From IMG/VR virus record IMGVR_UViG_3300021962_000721, positions 1 through 22,160 of that record: 22,160 nt of DNA; one strand, 5' to 3'. The position numbers were made by a program, and so were the translations under genes. The notes beneath the pieces were generated by a model that saw only the letters and a list, made by a program, of their open reading frames with translations, ran no database searches and was not told the DNA's origin. This document shows positions 2,968 through 14,992 of this stretch, piece after piece. This DNA comes from a virus. The stretch's first letter is position 1. Each line of letters starts with the position of its first letter.

Positions 2968-3245
2968 TTATGGAAAACGAAAAGCCATTAATGACAGAAG
3001 AAGGACGTAAATGGTTGAAGGACCATTTGAAAATGGGTCCTGTCAAAGTGACCTTTACAAAGAAAGATGGCTCTGAGAGAGTGATGAATTGTACCCTACA
3101 AGAAGGTGTAGTTGTTCCGCACGAGAAAACTACTGAACGTACTAAAGAAGAAAATTCCGATACTATGGCCGTTTGGGATCTTGAAAAGAGTGCGTGGAGA
3201 TCTTTCCGCCTAGATAGTGTATCAGCTATTCAATTTGATTTGTGA
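2964..3245 (+). CDS. SH3-like beta-barrel phage protein (DUF2693-like)
   Basis: A 93-residue protein containing GPVKVTFTKKDGSERVMNC, then EGVVVPHEKTTERTKEEN and AVWDLEKSAWRSFRLDSV. I recognise this as a small conserved protein of T4-type phages, often described as having an SH3-type beta-barrel fold (DUF2693-like). Function is unknown. The ATG at 2964 overlaps the previous stop; a second in-frame ATG at 2970 is equally possible. The last 20 bases overlap the 3' end of the oppositely oriented homing endonuclease gene. Confidence 0.75.
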   Translation: MIMENEKPLMTEEGRKWLKDHLKMGPVKVTFTKKDGSERVMNCTLQEGVVVPHEKTTERTKEENSDTMAVWDLEKSAWRSFRLDSVSAIQFDL

Positions 3246-3828
3246 TTTTTCTACGAGCGTGAGCTAATTTTATGGCATCTGACATTTTGCGTTTGGTTTC
3301 TTCGCTATGGATGCGCCCATGCATTGGGTTGCCAGCGCCGCTTCTATTTTTAGGACCTGGCTTGCCAGTACGAGAAACAGAGATTCTTAATTTGGTTTCT
3401 TCTGATAAAGCCCCTCGAGCCAAATTACGTTTGCGTGTTGCCTCGCTACGCCTTGCCCTCTCTTCCGGAGAATGTTTGACTTTTCCGCGATTCTTCTCAG
3501 CAATCCGAGCCCGCAGCTCAGGGGAATTTACAATAGCGCCTGCAACGTTAGAATTTATCCACTTAGGATTACGAAGCACATCGAGCCGCTTTAAAACTTT
3601 TTTCTCCCAAGCAATAGCTGATTCCCGGGTTTTAAACGTTCGTCGCACTTGGATTATATCTGGTTCGCCTTGGGTTAAACGAAGGGTGTGTACAACATGA
3701 CAACTTGTGAAGTACGTAACCCAAAGATTGCTCGGTTGAGCCTCTTTACGATATTTTTTATATTCTATACCGTAGTACCATTTGTCTAAACTCGACCAAC
3801 CTATTAAATAGGCGTAGGGCTGATACAT
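3226..3828 (-). CDS. GIY-YIG homing endonuclease with NUMOD3 motifs
   Basis: With the ATG at 3828 the product has 200 residues. That start has a perfect GGAGG five bases upstream (3834-3838), which an upstream in-frame ATG at 3843 lacks. The N-terminus (YAYLIGWSSLDKWYYGIEY, residues 5-23) is a GIY-YIG motif and Glu75 in AIAWEKKVL is the likely catalytic acid. Repeated NUMOD3-type DNA-binding motifs follow, including residues about 101-118, 141-158 and GNPMHGRIHSEETKRKMSD at 166-184. It points against the flanking genes, lies between an SH3-like gene and a glycosyltransferase gene, and has its own strong ribosome binding site. These are the marks of a free-standing mobile homing gene that would cut an empty allele of this junction. 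Confidence 0.85.
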   Translation of the reverse strand: MYQPYAYLIGWSSLDKWYYGIEYKKYRKEAQPSNLWVTYFTSCHVVHTLRLTQGEPDIIQVRRTFKTRESAIAWEKKVLKRLDVLRNPKWINSNVAGAIVNSPELRARIAEKNRGKVKHSPEERARRSEATRKRNLARGALSEETKLRISVSRTGKPGPKNRSGAGNPMHGRIHSEETKRKMSDAIKLAHARRKITNQIE

Positions 3829-3861
3829 AAATACCTCCAACATTAACTGAACTTATGATAT

Positions 3862-6907: not shown

Positions 6908-7672
6908 ATGGCTAGCAAACGCTCAAGTGCATTGCACGTAGTAAACACATCAGACACACAACAAACTGAGCAACCATCAAAACAACATTTGCCATTGAAA
7001 ATAAAGTTGGACCACATGAAAACGTTTGGTCCGCTAACTGATAACCAAAAGAAGTTTTATGATGCATATAAGCGCGGCGACTATTTTATAGCGTTGCATG
7101 GTGTAGCAGGAACGGGAAAGAGCTTTATAGCACTTTATAAAGCACTAGAAGAGGTATTAGATAAGGGTAATCCTTTCGATAAAGTTATTATTGTTAGATC
7201 TGCTGTACAAGGCAGAGAAATTGGTCACCTTCCAGGCGACATAGAAGGTAAGTTAGAGATTTACAGACAGCCGTATATGCAGATTTGCGATACATTGTTT
7301 GGTAGAAGAGATGCATATCAAAGATTAGAAGAGCAGCATCATATTGAATTCATATCGACCTCGTTTATTCGCGGTATGACATTTGATGATGCTATTATTA
7401 TTGTCGACGAGATGCAGAACATGACATATGAAGAAATTGATACAGTTATGACTCGTGTTGGTCATCGCTCAAAGATCATATGGTGTGGGGATTATAGACA
7501 GTGTGATTTGAAAAAGAGAGATGATAAATCCGGTTTGCTCAAGTTTTTTGAAGTCGCTGCTTTAATGTCAGCGTTCACGCGAATCGAGTTTACAACTAAT
7601 GATATTGTTCGTAGTAGTTTAGTGAAAGATTATATCCTTGCAAAGATTCAACTCGAAGACTCAAAACCGTAA
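6908..7672 (+). CDS. phoH: PhoH-like ATPase
   Basis: The 254-residue product has the PhoH nucleotide-binding core. Walker A GVAGTGKS is at residues 65-72, VIIVRSAVQGREIGHLPGD at 93-111 is the conserved PhoH segment, and Walker B IIIVDEMQN is at 163-171. WCGDYRQCDL at 192-201 is the motif III region. The Q-motif-like region before Walker A (LTDNQKKFYDAY) also fits. PhoH proteins have ATPase and in some cases RNA/DNA helicase activity and are very common in marine phages. Despite the name, regulation by phosphate is not shown here. A GGAG-type ribosome binding site (TAGGAG, 6898-6903) precedes the ATG. The 3' end overlaps the nuclease gene. Confidence 0.93.
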   Translation: MASKRSSALHVVNTSDTQQTEQPSKQHLPLKIKLDHMKTFGPLTDNQKKFYDAYKRGDYFIALHGVAGTGKSFIALYKALEEVLDKGNPFDKVIIVRSAVQGREIGHLPGDIEGKLEIYRQPYMQICDTLFGRRDAYQRLEEQHHIEFISTSFIRGMTFDDAIIIVDEMQNMTYEEIDTVMTRVGHRSKIIWCGDYRQCDLKKRDDKSGLLKFFEVAALMSAFTRIEFTTNDIVRSSLVKDYILAKIQLEDSKP

Positions 7673-8402
7673 ATTGTTTGAGCGTCAAGATCTACCACAA
7701 ATAGATCTTGAATCAACCACGATCGACGGGAAGCGCTACTACTGGACACCAGATGGCGCTCTCTATCCATCCGTAACATCTGTCCTTAGTAGTAACGAAG
7801 AAAAGAAAGCCGGACTTCAACGTTGGCGTAATAAGGTCGGTGAAGCAGAAGCAAATAGGATTTCTCGTAGAGCATCAGGTCGCGGAACTGAACTGCACAA
7901 CATCTGTGAAGACTATCTGTTAAACAAAAACACATACCTCCAAAAGAGGATGCCTCTTAGTGTTGAGTTGTTCAAGAACATCCAACCCGTTCTAGACGAA
8001 CACGTTGATGTAATATATGGTAACGAACTAGCGTTATTCTCTCATACGCTAAAGACAGCCGGCCGTACAGATATGTTCTGTCGGTTCATGGGTGTCAATA
8101 CAATTGTCGACTTTAAGTCAGCAACGACAAATAAGAGAGAAGATTGGATTGAGGACTACTTCTTACAATCAACAGCATATGCAATTATGCTAGAAGAAGT
8201 GTACAAAGATCTCAGACCAATTGTAATTCCACAAATTGCTATCGTAATTGCTGTGGAAGAAGGAGAGAGCAAGTATCAGTTGTTCCTCAAACAAACTTCA
8301 GAGTACAGAGAAAAGGTCAAGTATACTTTTGGACAGTACGCTGAAAACAATCCCCTCCCCAAAGGTGTAAGGACAGACGATCTGTTCGAAAAAGCACTTT
8401 AA
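7638..8402 (+). CDS. PD-(D/E)XK exonuclease, RecB/Cas4 type
   Basis: All the hallmark motifs of RecB/Cas4-type nucleases are present in order: GTELH with His87, Glu130 in NELALF, GRTD with Asp145, the core VDFK with Asp158 and Lys160, and the QSTAY motif with Gln177 and Tyr181. It is predicted to degrade or process DNA ends, perhaps host DNA or recombination intermediates; T4-type phages often carry it near phoH. There is no in-frame ATG before Met105, which lies past His87, so the start must be non-ATG. Candidates are TTG at 7638 (254 aa, overlapping phoH by 35 bases) and TTG at 7674, just after the phoH stop (242 aa). I cannot choose firmly between them. Confidence 0.85.
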   Translation: MQRFNSKTQNRKLFERQDLPQIDLESTTIDGKRYYWTPDGALYPSVTSVLSSNEEKKAGLQRWRNKVGEAEANRISRRASGRGTELHNICEDYLLNKNTYLQKRMPLSVELFKNIQPVLDEHVDVIYGNELALFSHTLKTAGRTDMFCRFMGVNTIVDFKSATTNKREDWIEDYFLQSTAYAIMLEEVYKDLRPIVIPQIAIVIAVEEGESKYQLFLKQTSEYREKVKYTFGQYAENNPLPKGVRTDDLFEKAL

Positions 8403-8422
8403 AATTAACTAGTTATAGCCTG

Positions 8423-8451
8423 TTGACATTTGCTCAAAGGTTGTGTAAAAT
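8423..8451 (+). promoter_or_regulatory. Strong sigma70-like promoter
   Basis: A perfect -35 TTGACA (8423-8428) and TAAAAT (8446-8451) are separated by exactly 17 bases. Transcription would start near 8458, giving a leader of about 27 bases with a GAGGA ribosome binding site before ATG 8485. It begins a new transcription unit after the phoH/exonuclease block and may also supply the structured segment at 9003-9205. Confidence 0.8.
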
Positions 8452-8484
8452 AGACTCTACCTTATCTGATAGAGGATTTACCGA

Positions 8485-8973
8485 ATGGTTAATATTCAAA
8501 GTGTGTTCAAGAAGTACGATATCAATCCGAATGGCTCCATCAACCGAGCAATCCAGAATGTTAGTTTGGCTATCTCTGAAGCACCCGATCCATTTGTCAC
8601 GTCCAATCAGATTATTAGTGCGTTAGGTTGTAAGCCTATACGTGATAGTATCGATGCACAAATCATTGCAAAATGTCTAATTGAGCAAGCAATACTACAA
8701 CGTGAGGAGTATATACCGGAGTTTGCCCTTACCAAGGCAAATGAGAAGCTCGCTAATATGAAGGTAAACCATCCCTATTGTTTTGTTATGAAGGAGAGTA
8801 CTGTGGAAGCAACTGCAACGTCTAAACGTGGTGGCGATAAGAAAGCCAAAGCCTTGGAGATTTTTGAGGCTAACCGTGATAAGAAGCCTAGCGATGTCGC
8901 TAAGCTGATTCAGATGGAACTTGGCATTACGTTTGCCAACGCTTATTACTACGTATCGCGCGTATTTAAGTAA
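8485..8973 (+). CDS. Hypothetical protein with C-terminal helix-turn-helix-like region
   Basis: The 162-residue product lies just behind a strong early-type promoter and has a GAGGA ribosome binding site eight bases before its ATG. The N-terminal part (about 1-95) is helical. A Gly/Lys linker (KRGGDKKAKA, around 114-123) leads to a C-terminal region reading ANRDKKPSDVAKLIQMELGITFANAYYYVSRVFK. There DVAKLIQMELGITFANAYYYV resembles a helix-turn-helix of the kind seen in phage small DNA-binding proteins. A DNA- or RNA-binding regulator is plausible but not proven. It is the only gene between the promoter and the structured non-coding segment that follows. Confidence 0.7.
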   Translation: MVNIQSVFKKYDINPNGSINRAIQNVSLAISEAPDPFVTSNQIISALGCKPIRDSIDAQIIAKCLIEQAILQREEYIPEFALTKANEKLANMKVNHPYCFVMKESTVEATATSKRGGDKKAKALEIFEANRDKKPSDVAKLIQMELGITFANAYYYVSRVFK

Positions 8974-9002
8974 GCATTTTCCTATGGCCCTTTTGTTAGG
9001 GG

Positions 9003-9205
9003 TTATAGGTCTGTTAATTGGAAAAATCCTGTGTCCACTTGGATAATGCACTGTCAATGACGTCCCTGGTTCGAAACACACGTAATACAGTTGTACTAAA
9101 CGGAAAGCAAGGTTAGCATCGGCCGGTGTCCTTGTATAAAGTTTAGACGATAAAAGCAAACGGCAGTAGGGTGATTGCTGTCCATAACAATTAACAGACC
9201 TATAA
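9003..9205 (+). ncRNA. Candidate structured non-coding RNA closed by an 18-bp inverted repeat
   Basis: This gene-free segment begins with TTATAGGTCTGTTAATTG (9003-9020) and ends with its exact reverse complement (9188-9205). Between these arms lie three non-overlapping helical arms. Arm I: ACTGT 9050-9054 with ACAGT 9087-9091, enclosing ACGT 9060-9063 with ACGT 9080-9083. Arm II: CTAAAC 9096-9101 with GTTTAG 9141-9146, enclosing GCAAGG/CCTTGT (9107-9112/9130-9135) and GCATC/GGTGT (9116-9120/9125-9129) with a GGCC loop. Arm III: GGCAGTA 9162-9168 with TGCTGTC-type pairing at 9176-9182. The nesting is compatible with one multibranched RNA of about 200 bases. I match no known RNA family. Strand is assumed from flanking transcription. 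A DNA-level element with terminal inverted repeats is the main alternative. Confidence 0.55.
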
Positions 9206-9230
9206 TGTGTTAAATATTTAAAGGATCAAT

Positions 9231-9584
9231 ATGAGTATCATATATTTAAGTACACGTTCGAAAAAGACTCGCAAGCAAAAGCAGAAGCAGAAAGATGCTT
9301 GGGAGTTGTATAAAGAGAAGTATGGCCTTAATGAAAATAGAGGTCGTACTCAACAAATCGTTAAGACATGGGCCGAACCAAAGCTAATGTCTCTACGACC
9401 TGGTGCGCTTGATCATAAACAACACAAATCATTGAACAGTGGTGCTGCTGTGGCAACGAAGACTGCGCGTCCAGTATATACCGGCGATCAGATGATTGGA
9501 ATTGCAGCAATGCATAAGTCCAATCTCGTTCCTATCTTTAGTAGCGAATCTGCTCACGATGTTTCAAAAATGCGGAGAGGATAA
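9231..9584 (+). CDS. Conserved T4-type phage protein of unknown function
   Basis: A 117-residue basic protein. A Lys/Gln-rich N-terminal helix (KKTRKQKQKQKDAWELYKEKYG, in part) is followed by a region with RPVYTGDQMIGIAAMHKSNLVPIFSSE and a C-terminal KMRRG. The IGIAAMHKSNLVPI block is one I recognise from conserved small proteins of T4-type marine phages, with no assigned role. A good ribosome binding site (AAGGA, about six bases before ATG) follows the structured segment. TATAAT at 9201-9206 could serve as a -10 but lacks a -35 at the right distance. Confidence 0.75.
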   Translation: MSIIYLSTRSKKTRKQKQKQKDAWELYKEKYGLNENRGRTQQIVKTWAEPKLMSLRPGALDHKQHKSLNSGAAVATKTARPVYTGDQMIGIAAMHKSNLVPIFSSESAHDVSKMRRG

Positions 9585-9585
9585 T

Positions 9586-9792
9586 ATGATTTTAGAAGTT
9601 CATGCTAAACCAAAAAGACATTTTGATGTCAGCTCGAGAAACGACTTGAAGATTGCAAAGAACTTTTTTCAAACTTGGTCGTGGGGTGGTAATGGGTGTC
9701 CGTTTGTTTTAGAACAACCCCATACATCTATTCCCGAGATGATGAGAGAAAAGATCATCAACAAGATGTTTAAAATTACAATTGCAGAATAA
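9586..9792 (+). CDS. Small hypothetical protein, 68 aa
   Basis: The start at 9586 lies one base after the previous stop and has GGAGAGG a few bases upstream, which excludes longer reading of the same frame into the preceding gene. The 68 residues contain KIAKNFFQTWSWGGNGCPFVLEQP and a basic C-terminal helix (MMREKIINKMFKITIAE). There is no membrane or signal segment. It is part of a run of coupled small conserved phage genes. I do not recognise a family. Confidence 0.65.
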   Translation: MILEVHAKPKRHFDVSSRNDLKIAKNFFQTWSWGGNGCPFVLEQPHTSIPEMMREKIINKMFKITIAE

Positions 9793-9794
9793 AA

Positions 9795-10154
9795 ATGAAA
9801 GTAGCAATAAACAGATGTTTTGGTGGTTTTGGTTTATCGGATGAAGGGTTCGAAGAACTACTAAAGCGTAAGGGTATTTTATTCGAGTTTGTGAAAAACG
9901 AATCGAGGTTCATGGGCAATACGTATTACCGGGCTGGCCATGTTGGAGAAGAAGAACACTATCTGTCTCCGGAGGAGTTCACCAAGGACCGTAATGATTA
10001 TGATCTGATTACCGTATTGGAAGAGATGGGCAACAGAGCATGGGGCTTTGCGGCTGAGATTGCAATCATACATATACCAGACGATGTTCAGTGGCATATT
10101 TCGGAGTATGATGGTCTGGAGCATGTCGCAGAAGATCATAGGATATGGCAATGA
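9795..10154 (+). CDS. Conserved phage protein of unknown function
   Basis: A 119-residue acidic protein beginning MKVAINRCFGGFGLSDEGFE and ending in IIHIPDDVQWHISEYDGLEH. This beginning and the 'IPDDVxWxIxEYDGxE' ending are a recurrent pattern I know from small phage proteins (many tailed phages, not only T4-type), whose role is unknown. It starts two bases after the previous stop. It overlaps the next gene (ATGA at 10151). The Asp/Glu-rich makeup suggests a cytoplasmic, possibly DNA-mimic-like or regulatory role, but that is only a guess. Confidence 0.8.
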   Translation: MKVAINRCFGGFGLSDEGFEELLKRKGILFEFVKNESRFMGNTYYRAGHVGEEEHYLSPEEFTKDRNDYDLITVLEEMGNRAWGFAAEIAIIHIPDDVQWHISEYDGLEHVAEDHRIWQ

Positions 10155-10333
10155 AAGCATTAAGAGATCAATTGATTGATAGAATCGCTTCTATTGGCGG
10201 AGAAGAGCGAGAATTCTATGAGGATTACTCCGATTACGACCTTTTGGAAGATTATGAAAGCCTGCTAAGAGCGAACATTGAAGAAGAGTTTGCAAATGAA
10301 AAAAAAGCGAGCGGTGATCAGTGTCAGATATAG
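10151..10333 (+). CDS. Small acidic protein, 60 aa
   Basis: The ATG at 10151 overlaps the preceding stop as ATGA; an in-frame ATG at 10145 is an alternative. The 60 residues are helical and acidic, with EEREFYEDYSDYDLLEDYESLLRANIEEEF, and a short polar tail. There is no membrane segment. It is followed by a GTG-started ORF that overlaps its end by 13 bases. Unknown function. Confidence 0.6.
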   Translation: MKALRDQLIDRIASIGGEEREFYEDYSDYDLLEDYESLLRANIEEEFANEKKASGDQCQI

Positions 10334-10444
10334 TAAAGTATGTTAATAAAGCCCTTGCTAGTATTCTAAGTGAAGGACGAATCCCTCGCCCCACTAGATC
10401 GTATAGAAGCCTTCGTCGTAGAAGACGATCAAAGCAATTTTTAA
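10321..10444 (+). pseudogene. Possible frameshifted small gene before the AAA ATPase
   Basis: From GTG at 10321 the first 18 codons read like a protein start (SDIVKYVNKALASILSE). After that the same frame turns into an Arg cluster (RSYRSLRRRRRSKQ). The frame one base later, open from 10370, reads KDESLAPLDRIEAFVVEDDQSNF and stops at 10442-10444. Joined by a +1 shift these would make an acidic protein of about 41 residues, closer to its neighbours in composition. Either a one-base indel broke a small gene, or a programmed shift occurs, or the upstream frame is a true N-terminal extension of the ATPase. Confidence 0.4.
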
Positions 10445-12569: not shown

Positions 12570-12796
12570 ACCCAATTACATTCCTAACATCCAACGTATC
12601 AGACCTTTGGTTATGGACTTACAGCATCATTGCTGGTTGGGGTACGACTGTTACATTGTTAGTAGTAGCAATCGGTTATCTGCTGATTAGAGTAATCAGA
12701 CTAGAGCAGAAAATCAAAACGATTGATAATAGACTTGTAGCAGAAACGAGAGACCTAAGTCTCCGTATCAACAAGCAAACGAATACGCTTGGCTGA
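12566..12796 (+). CDS. Small membrane protein with short coiled coil, 76 aa
   Basis: The start at 12566 overlaps the preceding stop as ATGA. One long hydrophobic segment is at about residues 14-42 (WLWTYSIIAGWGTTVTLLVVAIGYLLIRV). A charged coiled-coil-like tail follows (RLEQKIKTIDNRLVAETRDLSLRINKQ). The orientation is probably N-out or N-in with a cytoplasmic tail. The last 42 bases overlap the 3' end of the oppositely oriented NUMOD-type gene, so the two transcription units converge here. No clear terminator hairpin is seen at the junction. Confidence 0.6.
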   Translation: MNPITFLTSNVSDLWLWTYSIIAGWGTTVTLLVVAIGYLLIRVIRLEQKIKTIDNRLVAETRDLSLRINKQTNTLG

Positions 12797-13306
12797 ATTG
12801 ATATAGTCTTTAAACTCAGGACTTCTTCCCCATCTAAACCCTGCTGGTTTTTGTTCTTCGAAGCAACGTAACTCTTTCCCTGTCTCGGGATGGTGACACC
12901 AACGTTGTCCTTTTTTGATATTGGATTTGCCAAATCGGCTAGATGCGATCATAATCTTTGTAATTTGATTATGACGTCTTCCTTCGAAGTTTGATTTGCC
13001 TTTCATAGTCGCAGAGACTTTGGCATTTGATTCTAGTGGTCTAGGCTTACCAATCCTAGCTTCGATACATTTACGGCGAATCTCTTCCGTAAAATACTTC
13101 CATCCCCAACGTTTGAGTTCTTTGTAGTCTCTTACTACGTCTTGGGCTTTATAATCCTTCGCTAAACGCTCGATCACCTTCTCGAGGTTATCATACTCAG
13201 CAACTGATTGGATAAGCTCGTATTGGCCGGGATACTTCTGTCTAAACTCTTTTTCTGTCGACTCAACGACGATCAGTCTCTTAGACTGAAGAAATATCCT
13301 GTACAT
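12755..13306 (-). CDS. NUMOD-type DNA-binding / homing-endonuclease-related protein
   Basis: The 183-residue product starts three bases after the stop of the 560-residue gene upstream of it, so it is probably co-translated. Residues about 78-92 (RKCIEARIGKPRPLE) and 98-169 form NUMOD3-like and adjoining modules: MKGKSNFEGRRHNQITK, RWCHHPETGKELRCFEE, GFRWGRSPEFKDYI. The last part matches a W..(G)..R....PxGFxxGR motif seen in phage homing endonuclease-related proteins. No GIY-YIG or HNH catalytic site is visible, and the N-terminal 75 residues match nothing I know. It may be a maturase-like DNA binder or a degraded homing endonuclease. The module is also found in the neighbouring gene product. 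Confidence 0.65.
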   Translation of the reverse strand: MYRIFLQSKRLIVVESTEKEFRQKYPGQYELIQSVAEYDNLEKVIERLAKDYKAQDVVRDYKELKRWGWKYFTEEIRRKCIEARIGKPRPLESNAKVSATMKGKSNFEGRRHNQITKIMIASSRFGKSNIKKGQRWCHHPETGKELRCFEEQKPAGFRWGRSPEFKDYINSAKRIRLLVDTET

Positions 13307-13309
13307 ACA

Positions 13310-14992
13310 TTATTTTTTAGGAGCTGGGGGAGTAGGGGTTTGACCTAGTAACTTCTCAGCACGTGCGCGCGATGCTGCAGACTTTTCTTGCTCTCTTTGG
13401 AATGCACGTTGTAGTTTTAAAGCAGCACTCATACGCGCTTCCTTTACTGTGCAGCTGTGCTTCTCACCCTTGGCCATCCATCCGTCGCAATTGTCACATC
13501 TTACTTTGCGACCGATCATCTCTTTTAGTTGTTTAAGTGTTTTCATTTTTTGTCCTGGAGTATCTTTACTATATGTTTGAGCTAGACTAGCAGTGCCTTC
13601 AAGTCTGTTTGAAGAATTATTGCCTTCGCTGACTGACTTCCAACCACCACCTTTTGACTTATACCACTTTGCAGCCCAGCCATTTGCATATGCGGAAGGA
13701 TATACATCAAATTTAGATCGAGCAAGCGATTTAGCTTTTGACCACAATTCAGGATTAGTTGGTTTATTACTTTCACCCAAACTAGTTTGTTCGTTTTTTG
13801 GTTTTTTGCCAGCTTTTTTCATTGCTATAGCTATAGCTGCTTGTTGTTTAAAGTTTTTGGCTTCTGAGTGCATATTAATAAAAAAGTTAGCTTGTTTTTT
13901 ATCCAACGTTGTAGCGCTGGCTTTATTTTTTAATGCTTTTACTTTAGCCAAAGTGATTGGTCCATCAATCTTTGCCTTAAGGGTACCAGGTGCACCTCTT
14001 TTGCTATGACTTTGTTTGATTAATTCAGATGTTTGTTTTTCTTCTGTTGCAACGTTGATTGGTTTATTTCCTTTACCAGCTCTATCTGCAACTGGATCTT
14101 CTCTACGCTTGCGTCTTGCAGCTGCAGCACGATCTTGTTTATTCATCGACTGGGCTTTTGATTGAGGTAAACATTTTGGTTTGCCCTCTCCTGGCTCTCT
14201 TGCACAATCCCCTTTAATGTTTCCTTTTGTATCCATACGGACCCATTTTTCTTTGAACCATTTACGAAGATCTTCATTAAGAGCAGGACACTTACCACCA
14301 AACTTAGGGGGAACGTGGGTTGTTCCGCATCTTCCACACTTTGTTGCTTTTGCTTCTTGTACAACAACCTCTTCACTGAACATATGAGTATTGCGTTGGC
14401 CATACTCTCTCATCATAACCCCGGCCAATGCATTTGCTTCGTTCTCATATGGAGAACCAGTATCACCAGCATCTTCTGGTAATGGCTCTAGTGTTCCTTG
14501 ACGGTAATGAACGAGTTCGTGAGCGAGTGTGCGAAGAATATCCATTGTATGTCTACCAGCAACGTTTAATTCGATGCGTTGTTCTTCCGGATAGTATCCA
14601 CCGAATGCGCCAAACTTCTCTGCCGCCTCTAAATCATAGTTGAGATCAATCTGCGGAAGCGTATCTAAATTGAGAGTACCTTTTGCAAACTGCACAAAGT
14701 CTTCTACAGCATCTGCAACTTTTTTCTTCTCCAACAACACTTCCTCTTTGATCCATTCTCTAAACCCAGCTGTCCGACCCCACTTATTTCCTCTAGGAAG
14801 ATTGGCGCCAGGTTTTACGCGAGTTTCTTTCCCTGTCTCTTTATCAACAGCCCACTTATGATCCTTAGCGTTTTTATGACCTTCTTGAGAAAAAGCAATA
14901 GCAATCTTAGAAGCATGCGTGTGTCTATGCCCTTCAAAATTGGATTTTCCCTTCATTGCACGGGATATTTTTTTGCGAGTTTGTATGTCCAT
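13310..14992 (-). CDS. Modular zincin metallopeptidase fused to NUMOD-type and phage structural modules
   Basis: This 560-residue protein is built from several recognisable blocks. Residues 8-82 are a NUMOD-type module very like that of the neighbouring gene. Residues about 83-205 hold a zincin with HELVH (158-162) and ENEANA (183-188) as the likely third-ligand region. Residues 219-274 have Cys219, Cys222, Cys235, Cys263 and Cys274 as possible zinc ribbons. Residues 240-300 contain the KWVRMDTKGNIKGDC and KCLPQSKAQSM type motifs seen in phage polyvalent virion proteins. NFKQQAAIAIAMKKAGKKPK is at 380-399, NPELWSKAKSLARSKF (413-428) and AAKWYKSKGGGWK (440-452) resemble DUF5872-like pieces, and a CxxC..HxC finger is at 499-514. 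A late-type promoter ends five bases before the ATG. Confidence 0.8.
   Translation of the reverse strand: MDIQTRKKISRAMKGKSNFEGHRHTHASKIAIAFSQEGHKNAKDHKWAVDKETGKETRVKPGANLPRGNKWGRTAGFREWIKEEVLLEKKKVADAVEDFVQFAKGTLNLDTLPQIDLNYDLEAAEKFGAFGGYYPEEQRIELNVAGRHTMDILRTLAHELVHYRQGTLEPLPEDAGDTGSPYENEANALAGVMMREYGQRNTHMFSEEVVVQEAKATKCGRCGTTHVPPKFGGKCPALNEDLRKWFKEKWVRMDTKGNIKGDCAREPGEGKPKCLPQSKAQSMNKQDRAAAARRKRREDPVADRAGKGNKPINVATEEKQTSELIKQSHSKRGAPGTLKAKIDGPITLAKVKALKNKASATTLDKKQANFFINMHSEAKNFKQQAAIAIAMKKAGKKPKNEQTSLGESNKPTNPELWSKAKSLARSKFDVYPSAYANGWAAKWYKSKGGGWKSVSEGNNSSNRLEGTASLAQTYSKDTPGQKMKTLKQLKEMIGRKVRCDNCDGWMAKGEKHSCTVKEARMSAALKLQRAFQREQEKSAASRARAEKLLGQTPTPPAPKK

Follow-up and report, generated by a model that had tools for sequence, protein, structure and literature searches.

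What does a viral genome encode in a stretch that holds no evident gene and is closed by a perfect inverted repeat? In the window (the whole stretch of DNA analyzed here, a virus record of 22,160 bases), two 18-nt arms (9003-9020 and 9188-9205) are exact reverse complements with 167 nt between them, and they were the sole inverted repeat reported within 8700-9500 (seed 9, minimum 12). The resulting element of 203 bases lies inside a 257-nt gap (8974-9230) between the flanking plus-strand ORFs. A minus-strand ORF (8695-9159) crosses part of this gap; it overlaps the upstream gene and was taken as spurious. A first-pass annotation made from the sequence alone had described a gene-free element closed by a perfect 18-bp inverted repeat, which held, and 257 empty bases, which held for the gap between plus-strand ORFs. 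The neighbours of the element are as follows.

8423 to 8451, plus strand: sigma-70-like promoter upstream of the preceding gene (consensus match only, function inferred)
8485 to 8973, plus strand: upstream gene, 162 aa, no PHROG match
8981 to 9009, plus strand: terminator-like hairpin, sharing 9003-9009 with the 5' strand of the closing stem P1
9231 to 9584, plus strand: downstream gene, 117 aa, phrog_27048, function unknown

The predicted RNA fold of the window element had a free energy of -63.1 kcal/mol versus -44.2 kcal/mol (sd 4.05) for shuffled sequences (z -4.66), and none of 200 shuffles folded as well. The element gave no tRNA or tmRNA match (ARAGORN, Rfam) and no match to any Rfam family, ribozymes included, at the gathering threshold. 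The promoter-like site at 8423 (TTGACA, 17 nt, TAAAAT) agrees with the consensus at 11 of 12 positions. The earlier proposal of a promoter there holds as a consensus match with an inferred function; that the element is processed from its transcript remains a guess, and the window copy is far (6.6 kb) from the nearest tRNA, a single tRNA-Met gene (2363-2439) that is the window's only tRNA. Two terminator-like sites were found in 8300-9800, where 1.1 were expected. As the hairpin at 8981-9009 and P1 share 9003-9009, they are mutually exclusive; a comparable hairpin can be seen by eye ahead of the site in L012-L020. The window also codes for a PhoH-like protein, with its best isolate matches in cyanophages (43-47% identity), a glycosyltransferase, and two proteins assigned to phage exonuclease families. 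Homing-endonuclease-like ORFs (GIY-YIG or NUMOD type, judged by eye) were seen at 1857-2312, 3226-3843, and 12755-14992.

Relatives of the element were collected from viral contigs. The arm 18-mer matched five of them, including L003 and L004 by chance, and the upstream gene (8485-8973), which had no tblastn match among isolates, served as query and yielded 17 syntenic loci. Scans with two conserved blocks from the full versions matched 41, 55, and 75 contigs, of which 12 of the 55 and nine of the 75 (L097, L099, L101, L104, L108, L110, L112, L113, and L115) were dropped for missing the rest of the RNA. With a deleted copy (one region read as L002, L011, and L027) and copies truncated at contig ends (L031, L042, and L116) left outside, 50 distinct complete cores were kept, that of the window included. 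The script that picked the cores required GGAAA, TGCAC, AAAAGCAAAC, and C/TATAAC, so that the selection itself accounts for part of the conservation of these blocks; neither the helices nor the P3 loop formed part of the search patterns. Mean column identity was 55% for the full set of 50 rows and 70% for the 34 in alignment A2.

A covariance model (R1) matched 66 of the 81 sources given; 34 of these 66 contain rows used to train it, and several come from a single contig. Among 23 whole records, which may themselves be fragments, 21 matched: 20 contained one strong copy and none contained two. G021 holds the deleted copy (29.9 bits), G018 showed an extra weak second match (18 bits), and R1 found no match in G020 (the short version of L017) or G022. 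A weak second R1 match (18 bits) at L033:3579-3776 is perhaps a decayed second copy. At L011:6520-6590, most of the core is deleted, apparently between short direct repeats, with P1 and P5 left; this deletion may be natural or an assembly effect.

The family is likely undescribed, as judged from the open-access literature, Rfam, and isolate phages searched. The Rfam search proposed in the first-pass annotation revealed no family for the window element (gathering threshold) or for the elements of L036, L047, L050, L030, and L045 (E up to 10); for 27 more pieces, only the best 150 of 241 and 150 of 213 rows were seen. At the DNA level, isolate phages gave no match to window 7600-10400 or to the L036 element, and only short chance-level pieces for the elements of L046 and the window (best E 2 and 0.6). 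The L050 element matched 107 isolate records, none covering 80% of it, and the best 20 of these rows all match the tRNA end that precedes the element (query 4-50). One exact pattern searched in bacterial and archaeal genome contigs gave four matches, none with the 5' core; we regard these as chance, and the absence from bacterial genomes holds for that pattern only. No description of this RNA was found in the open-access literature searched; an earlier description elsewhere is not excluded.

Comparison of the members shows a four-arm multiloop (P2-P5) on the long stem P1, with conserved purine-rich junctions. Its parts in the window are listed below.

9003 to 9020, plus strand: 5' strand of closing stem P1, perfect inverted repeat, both-side changes in relatives
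9020 to 9026, plus strand: junction J1/2, GGAAAAA, with GGAAA invariant across the family (alignment A1)
9026 to 9044, plus strand: hairpin P2, both-side changes at 5 of 6 pairs
9045 to 9051, plus strand: junction J2/3, AATGCAC, six of seven columns invariant in A1
9058 to 9085, plus strand: hairpin P3, both-side changes at 6 of 6 outer and 2 of 2 inner pairs
9070 to 9075, plus strand: self-complementary loop TTCGAA at the P3 tip, proposed kissing-loop dimer site
9092 to 9149, plus strand: arm P4 (outer helix P4a, inner helices P4b and P4c), from single-sequence folds
9120 to 9125, plus strand: second self-complementary loop CGGCCG at the P4c tip, the same kind of loop in 21 of 50 cores
9151 to 9161, plus strand: junction J4/5, TAAAAGCAAAC, invariant, in the search patterns and so largely by construction
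9162 to 9182, plus strand: hairpin P5 with a GGGTGAT loop, both-side changes at 6 of 7 pairs
9183 to 9188, plus strand: junction J5/1, CATAAC, nearly invariant, in the search patterns and so largely by construction
9188 to 9205, plus strand: 3' strand of P1, perfect inverted repeat, both-side changes in relatives

The conservation of J1/2 and J2/3 is likewise partly by construction, because GGAAA was part of the search patterns and TGCAC was used to pick cores. In the window copy, P2 contains one U-U mismatch and P3 one mismatch. P4 was seen in the single-sequence folds of 48 of the 50 members (two were not parsed), and some members carry an extra hairpin inside it. Of the inner arms drawn in the first-pass annotation, those at 9096-9146 (P4) and 9162-9182 (P5) held, the one at 9050-9091 failed as relatives place P3 at 9058-9085, and the hairpin P2 at 9026-9044 had been overlooked.

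Covariation was evaluated with the 34 aligned relatives from viral contigs in A2. RNAalifold identified P1, P2, P3, and P5 with at least one compensatory change at 35 of 38 pairs; P4 was not found in this 34-member alignment, and eight P4 pairs were added by hand from single-sequence folds before scoring. Both-side changes were then present at 41 of 46 base pairs versus 23.6 in shuffles, 92.9% of the cells were paired versus 74.1%, and the covariation score was 0.540 versus 0.194, with none of 500 shuffles reaching any of these measures. Controls with slid partners scored 0.108 at most. Every helix showed compensatory changes, including P1 with both-side changes at 16 of 17 pairs and P4a at 5 of 6. 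Pairing was highest in P1 (99.1% of cells) and P5 (97.9%) and weakest in P4a (67.7%), a low value that is likely due in part to indels. Two objections apply: the structure was derived on the very alignment used for scoring, and the shuffles do not remove relatedness, so that related sequences can beat them without any structure. Despite the caveat of relatedness, we accept an RNA family because of the effect size and the slid controls. By this comparison the element is almost certainly one copy of a conserved structured RNA family, for which expression data are lacking. The compensatory changes called for in the first-pass annotation were thereby found, and its proposal of a novel multibranch phage RNA is supported by comparison, the RNA itself being unobserved.

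The genomic setting of most relatives, which had not been foreseen, is the tRNA array. A tRNA called by ARAGORN lay within 60 nt on at least one side of 31 of the 50 cores, and for 17 cores a called tRNA ended flush with P1; five (L032, L043, L044, L050, and L053) had flush tRNAs on both sides. In 46 of 50 cases a tRNA was present somewhere in the fetched piece, the nearest one always on the same strand, with up to 37 tRNAs in one piece (L055). ARAGORN detected no tRNA in the fetched pieces of L001, L016, L059, and L092. CCA directly precedes P1 on its 5' side in 24 of the 50 cores, and the mirrored stretch has TGG in 22 of these, which allows the stem to take in the CCA as well. The criterion for TGG is a loose one, and 10 of the 26 cores without CCA also passed it. 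The flush position at tRNA CCA ends suggests that the RNA is released by tRNA processing, most simply by RNase P together with tRNA 3'-end maturation, an inference drawn from position with no processing observed. The window copy itself sits between protein genes and not in a tRNA array. Other features noted in the arrays were permuted tmRNA genes (Rfam RF04321; L035:6948-7355, L064:7824-8263, and L095:8496-8776) and a tRNA with a CUA anticodon (L083:2345-2419, ARAGORN tRNA-Pyl), possibly an amber suppressor.

At the locus of the window, the full element occurs in four lineages (window/L009, L010, L012 = L013, and L016). L011 has the internal deletion, only a short stem-loop is present in L014, L015, and L017-L020, and neither version was seen by eye at five distant loci (L021-L025). 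Since L011, L014, L015, and L017-L020 lack the core, it is dispensable at this locus. The core-less versions of L014, L015, L017, and L018, when folded, kept the GC-rich hairpin followed by a 12-14 bp stem. The elements of the window and the syntenic L010 are 64% identical, the flanking genes 92% and 86%. The window core shares 83% identity with the array cores of L039 and L073 and 57% with that of L010 (contig read as L001), and the L012 core is closest to that of L098 (81%). P1 at the window locus has its own sequence, and the array copies have a different one. This pattern of identities suggests repeated exchange or insertion of the core at a locus that retained a P1 of its own. Gain or loss of the core is recent, since L016, with the full version, and L017, with the short one, form a group and their upstream proteins share 93% identity. 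Identity between carriers falls to 29% for PhoH and to 27-30% for the terminase (of 18 records searched, 12 yielded a PhoH, including the non-carrier G020, and 9 a terminase; the TerL of G010 was left out, as the script did not find the gene and used the longest ORF). Carrier divergence and the cassette pattern together suggest that the RNA was exchanged between very different phages, with the reservation that the identity scales differ.

The second unforeseen property is the self-complementarity of two hairpin loops. A 6-nt palindrome was found within the 15-nt window at the P3 tip in all 50 cores and in all 33 distinct windows, in 14 forms, whereas shuffled windows averaged 10.1 and never exceeded 20 of 50. 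The P3 window was chosen after the loops had been seen, and a scan of the whole core served as control for that choice: other 15-nt windows contained a palindrome in 0-14 of 50 cores, excluding those overlapping P3 and the P4c tip, and a second peak (29 of 50) appeared at the P4 tip. With a stricter test, 21 of the 50 cores had a P4c-tip palindrome, closed by at least four pairs in 19 of the 21; the remaining tips are GACG-type or other loops, so that fewer than half of the cores carry this palindrome. On a tree built without the P3-tip window, at least 28 changes of the P3 palindrome were counted. This number is rough: good support is limited to 15 of the 47 inner branches, the bootstrap remained unsettled, and poor resolution or recombination may have inflated the count; the 14 forms need at least 13 changes. 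The same palindrome in P3 and P4c of one RNA was never observed (0 of 21), but as 1.0 was expected this provides no evidence.

Because the bases at the centre of such a loop have no possible partner in their own chain, pairing between chains is the natural reading, and the study of GOLLD, ROOL, and OLE follows similar reasoning (PMC12286853). Repeated change from one palindrome to another is the pattern expected for kissing-loop homodimers. We infer from the sequences that the RNA likely homodimerizes via the P3 loop; no dimer has been observed.

Taken together, we propose that the element encodes a discrete structured noncoding RNA of about 200 nt. In many carriers it would be transcribed within a tRNA array and excised by the enzymes acting on tRNA 3' and 5' ends, as inferred from position; in the window phage it would probably be part of a transcript starting at about 8423, with P1 as the processing stem. 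Two copies would bind through the P3 loop (inferred from sequence), P4c perhaps forming a second contact in about two fifths of the members, and the RNA would function as a homodimer or as an assembly of more than two identical copies. By analogy with GOLLD and ROOL, it may be a trans-acting assembly used during infection, and this role is a best guess only. We consider the explanation as a whole likely, although no transcript, processing, dimer, or phenotype has been observed.

Four rival explanations were considered. First, the element could be a cis-acting leader, in which alternative folds of P1 and the hairpin at 8981-9009 control the downstream gene and the core acts as a sensor. In its favour, the two structures share bases, and in L012-L020 the 3' arm of the stem holds an ATG that by eye seems to open the downstream frame, even without a core. 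Against it, tRNA genes are found within 60 nt of 31 of the 50 copies, the downstream ORF of the window begins 26 nt past P1 with its own purine-rich site, and the P1 sequence differs in array copies; a leader is thus unlikely. Second, the palindromic loops could serve a symmetric protein or a full duplex and not RNA-RNA kissing. Self-complementarity alone is no proof of kissing, and no dimer was observed; however, the 14 different palindromes argue against sequence-specific recognition, and palindromic switching at adjacent loop bases was taken as evidence of intermolecular pairs in a study of GOLLD and OLE (PMC12286853), so that we judge this rival improbable as well. Third, a self-cleaving or self-splicing RNA could free the neighbouring tRNAs in the manner of theta ribozymes, as would fit the frequent abutment on tRNA 3' ends, the conserved junctions, and the existence of theta ribozymes beside phage tRNAs (PMC10879173). 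Catalysis is hypothetical here, no Rfam family, ribozymes included, was found on the window element or five relatives (without a theta-specific model), and window-locus copies have no adjoining tRNA; we regard a ribozyme as unlikely. Finally, a DNA element with terminal inverted repeats (MITE- or origin-like) and an incidental RNA fold, the main alternative of the first-pass annotation, would fit the perfect repeat, the repeated exchange or insertion of cores that the window locus appears to record, and the resemblance of the short versions to empty sites, but it is all but excluded because the arms, like every other helix, change compensatorily, the repeat sequence differs among loci, the several same-repeat copies per genome expected of a transposon or MITE were not seen (one strong match in 20 of 23 records, which may be fragments, and two in none), and DNA repeats leave palindromes confined to hairpin tips unexplained.

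The preferred reading, a structured RNA that would pair with itself, can be extended to a bolder one, which as a whole we put forward tentatively and do not at present favour: a phage RNA with a rapidly changing code of self-recognition. Each lineage would have its own P3 palindrome and often a different one in P4c, so that its RNA would assemble with itself and not with that of a rival phage, the product being a dimer, a ring, or a larger RNA-only particle. The core would be a cassette that moves among unrelated phages and adopts the P1 of the locus it enters, and the family, small and tractable, would join GOLLD and ROOL in a guild of assembling RNAs in phage tRNA islands.

Among known systems, the T4 RNAs rnaC and rnaD (species 1 and 2) are alike in being small stable RNAs (139 and 119 nt) beside tRNA genes. 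With filters off, the best R1 score in the 5-kb T4 region was 8.8 bits, for 39 nt that lie in neither gene (rough E 0.017); scores within rnaC did not exceed 2 bits, and nothing was listed within rnaD. Homology in sequence and structure is thus not supported. Theta ribozymes are also phage RNAs next to tRNAs (PMC10879173); they differ in their HDV-like fold, and there is no catalytic evidence for the new RNA. The HIV-1 dimer site and phi29 pRNA are viral RNAs with biologically relevant homomers (PMC12286853). Both use loop-loop pairing, and neither is known to be related to the new RNA in fold or context.

The closest parallels are GOLLD (RF02032), a phage RNA of tRNA arrays like the new one, and ROOL, a phage and prophage RNA near tRNA islands that forms a complex of eight chains (PMC12286853). 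GOLLD shares at least five fetched pieces with the new RNA (L047:2411-2870, L050:1627-2092, L051:4568-5028, L079:7640-8102, and L038:7549-8012); each of these GOLLDs overlaps an ARAGORN tRNA call (Asn or Lys). It forms RNA-only multimers, and one symmetric loop covaries as a palindrome (PMC12286853). Such a loop, a trait of GOLLD, ROOL, and OLE, is present in the new RNA in 50 of 50 cores and 14 forms. GOLLD is nevertheless a separate gene in the arrays, its model did not match the new RNA (window and five relatives), and it is far larger, with an Rfam model of 416 positions and many members over 800 nt (PMC12286853). ROOL was not among the Rfam results for the window or five relatives, nor among the best 150 of 241 and 150 of 213 rows for the 27 other pieces. 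It is also much larger than the new RNA. GOLLD and ROOL showed that phage-encoded RNAs build RNA-only particles, but both are large and their role is unknown. The new family, of about 200 nt and with carriers whose terminases share under a third of their residues, allows a sharp prediction: dimers should be lost when one six-base loop is made nonpalindromic and should return when it is given another palindrome. The family is a simple case in which to ask why phage tRNA arrays carry structured RNAs.
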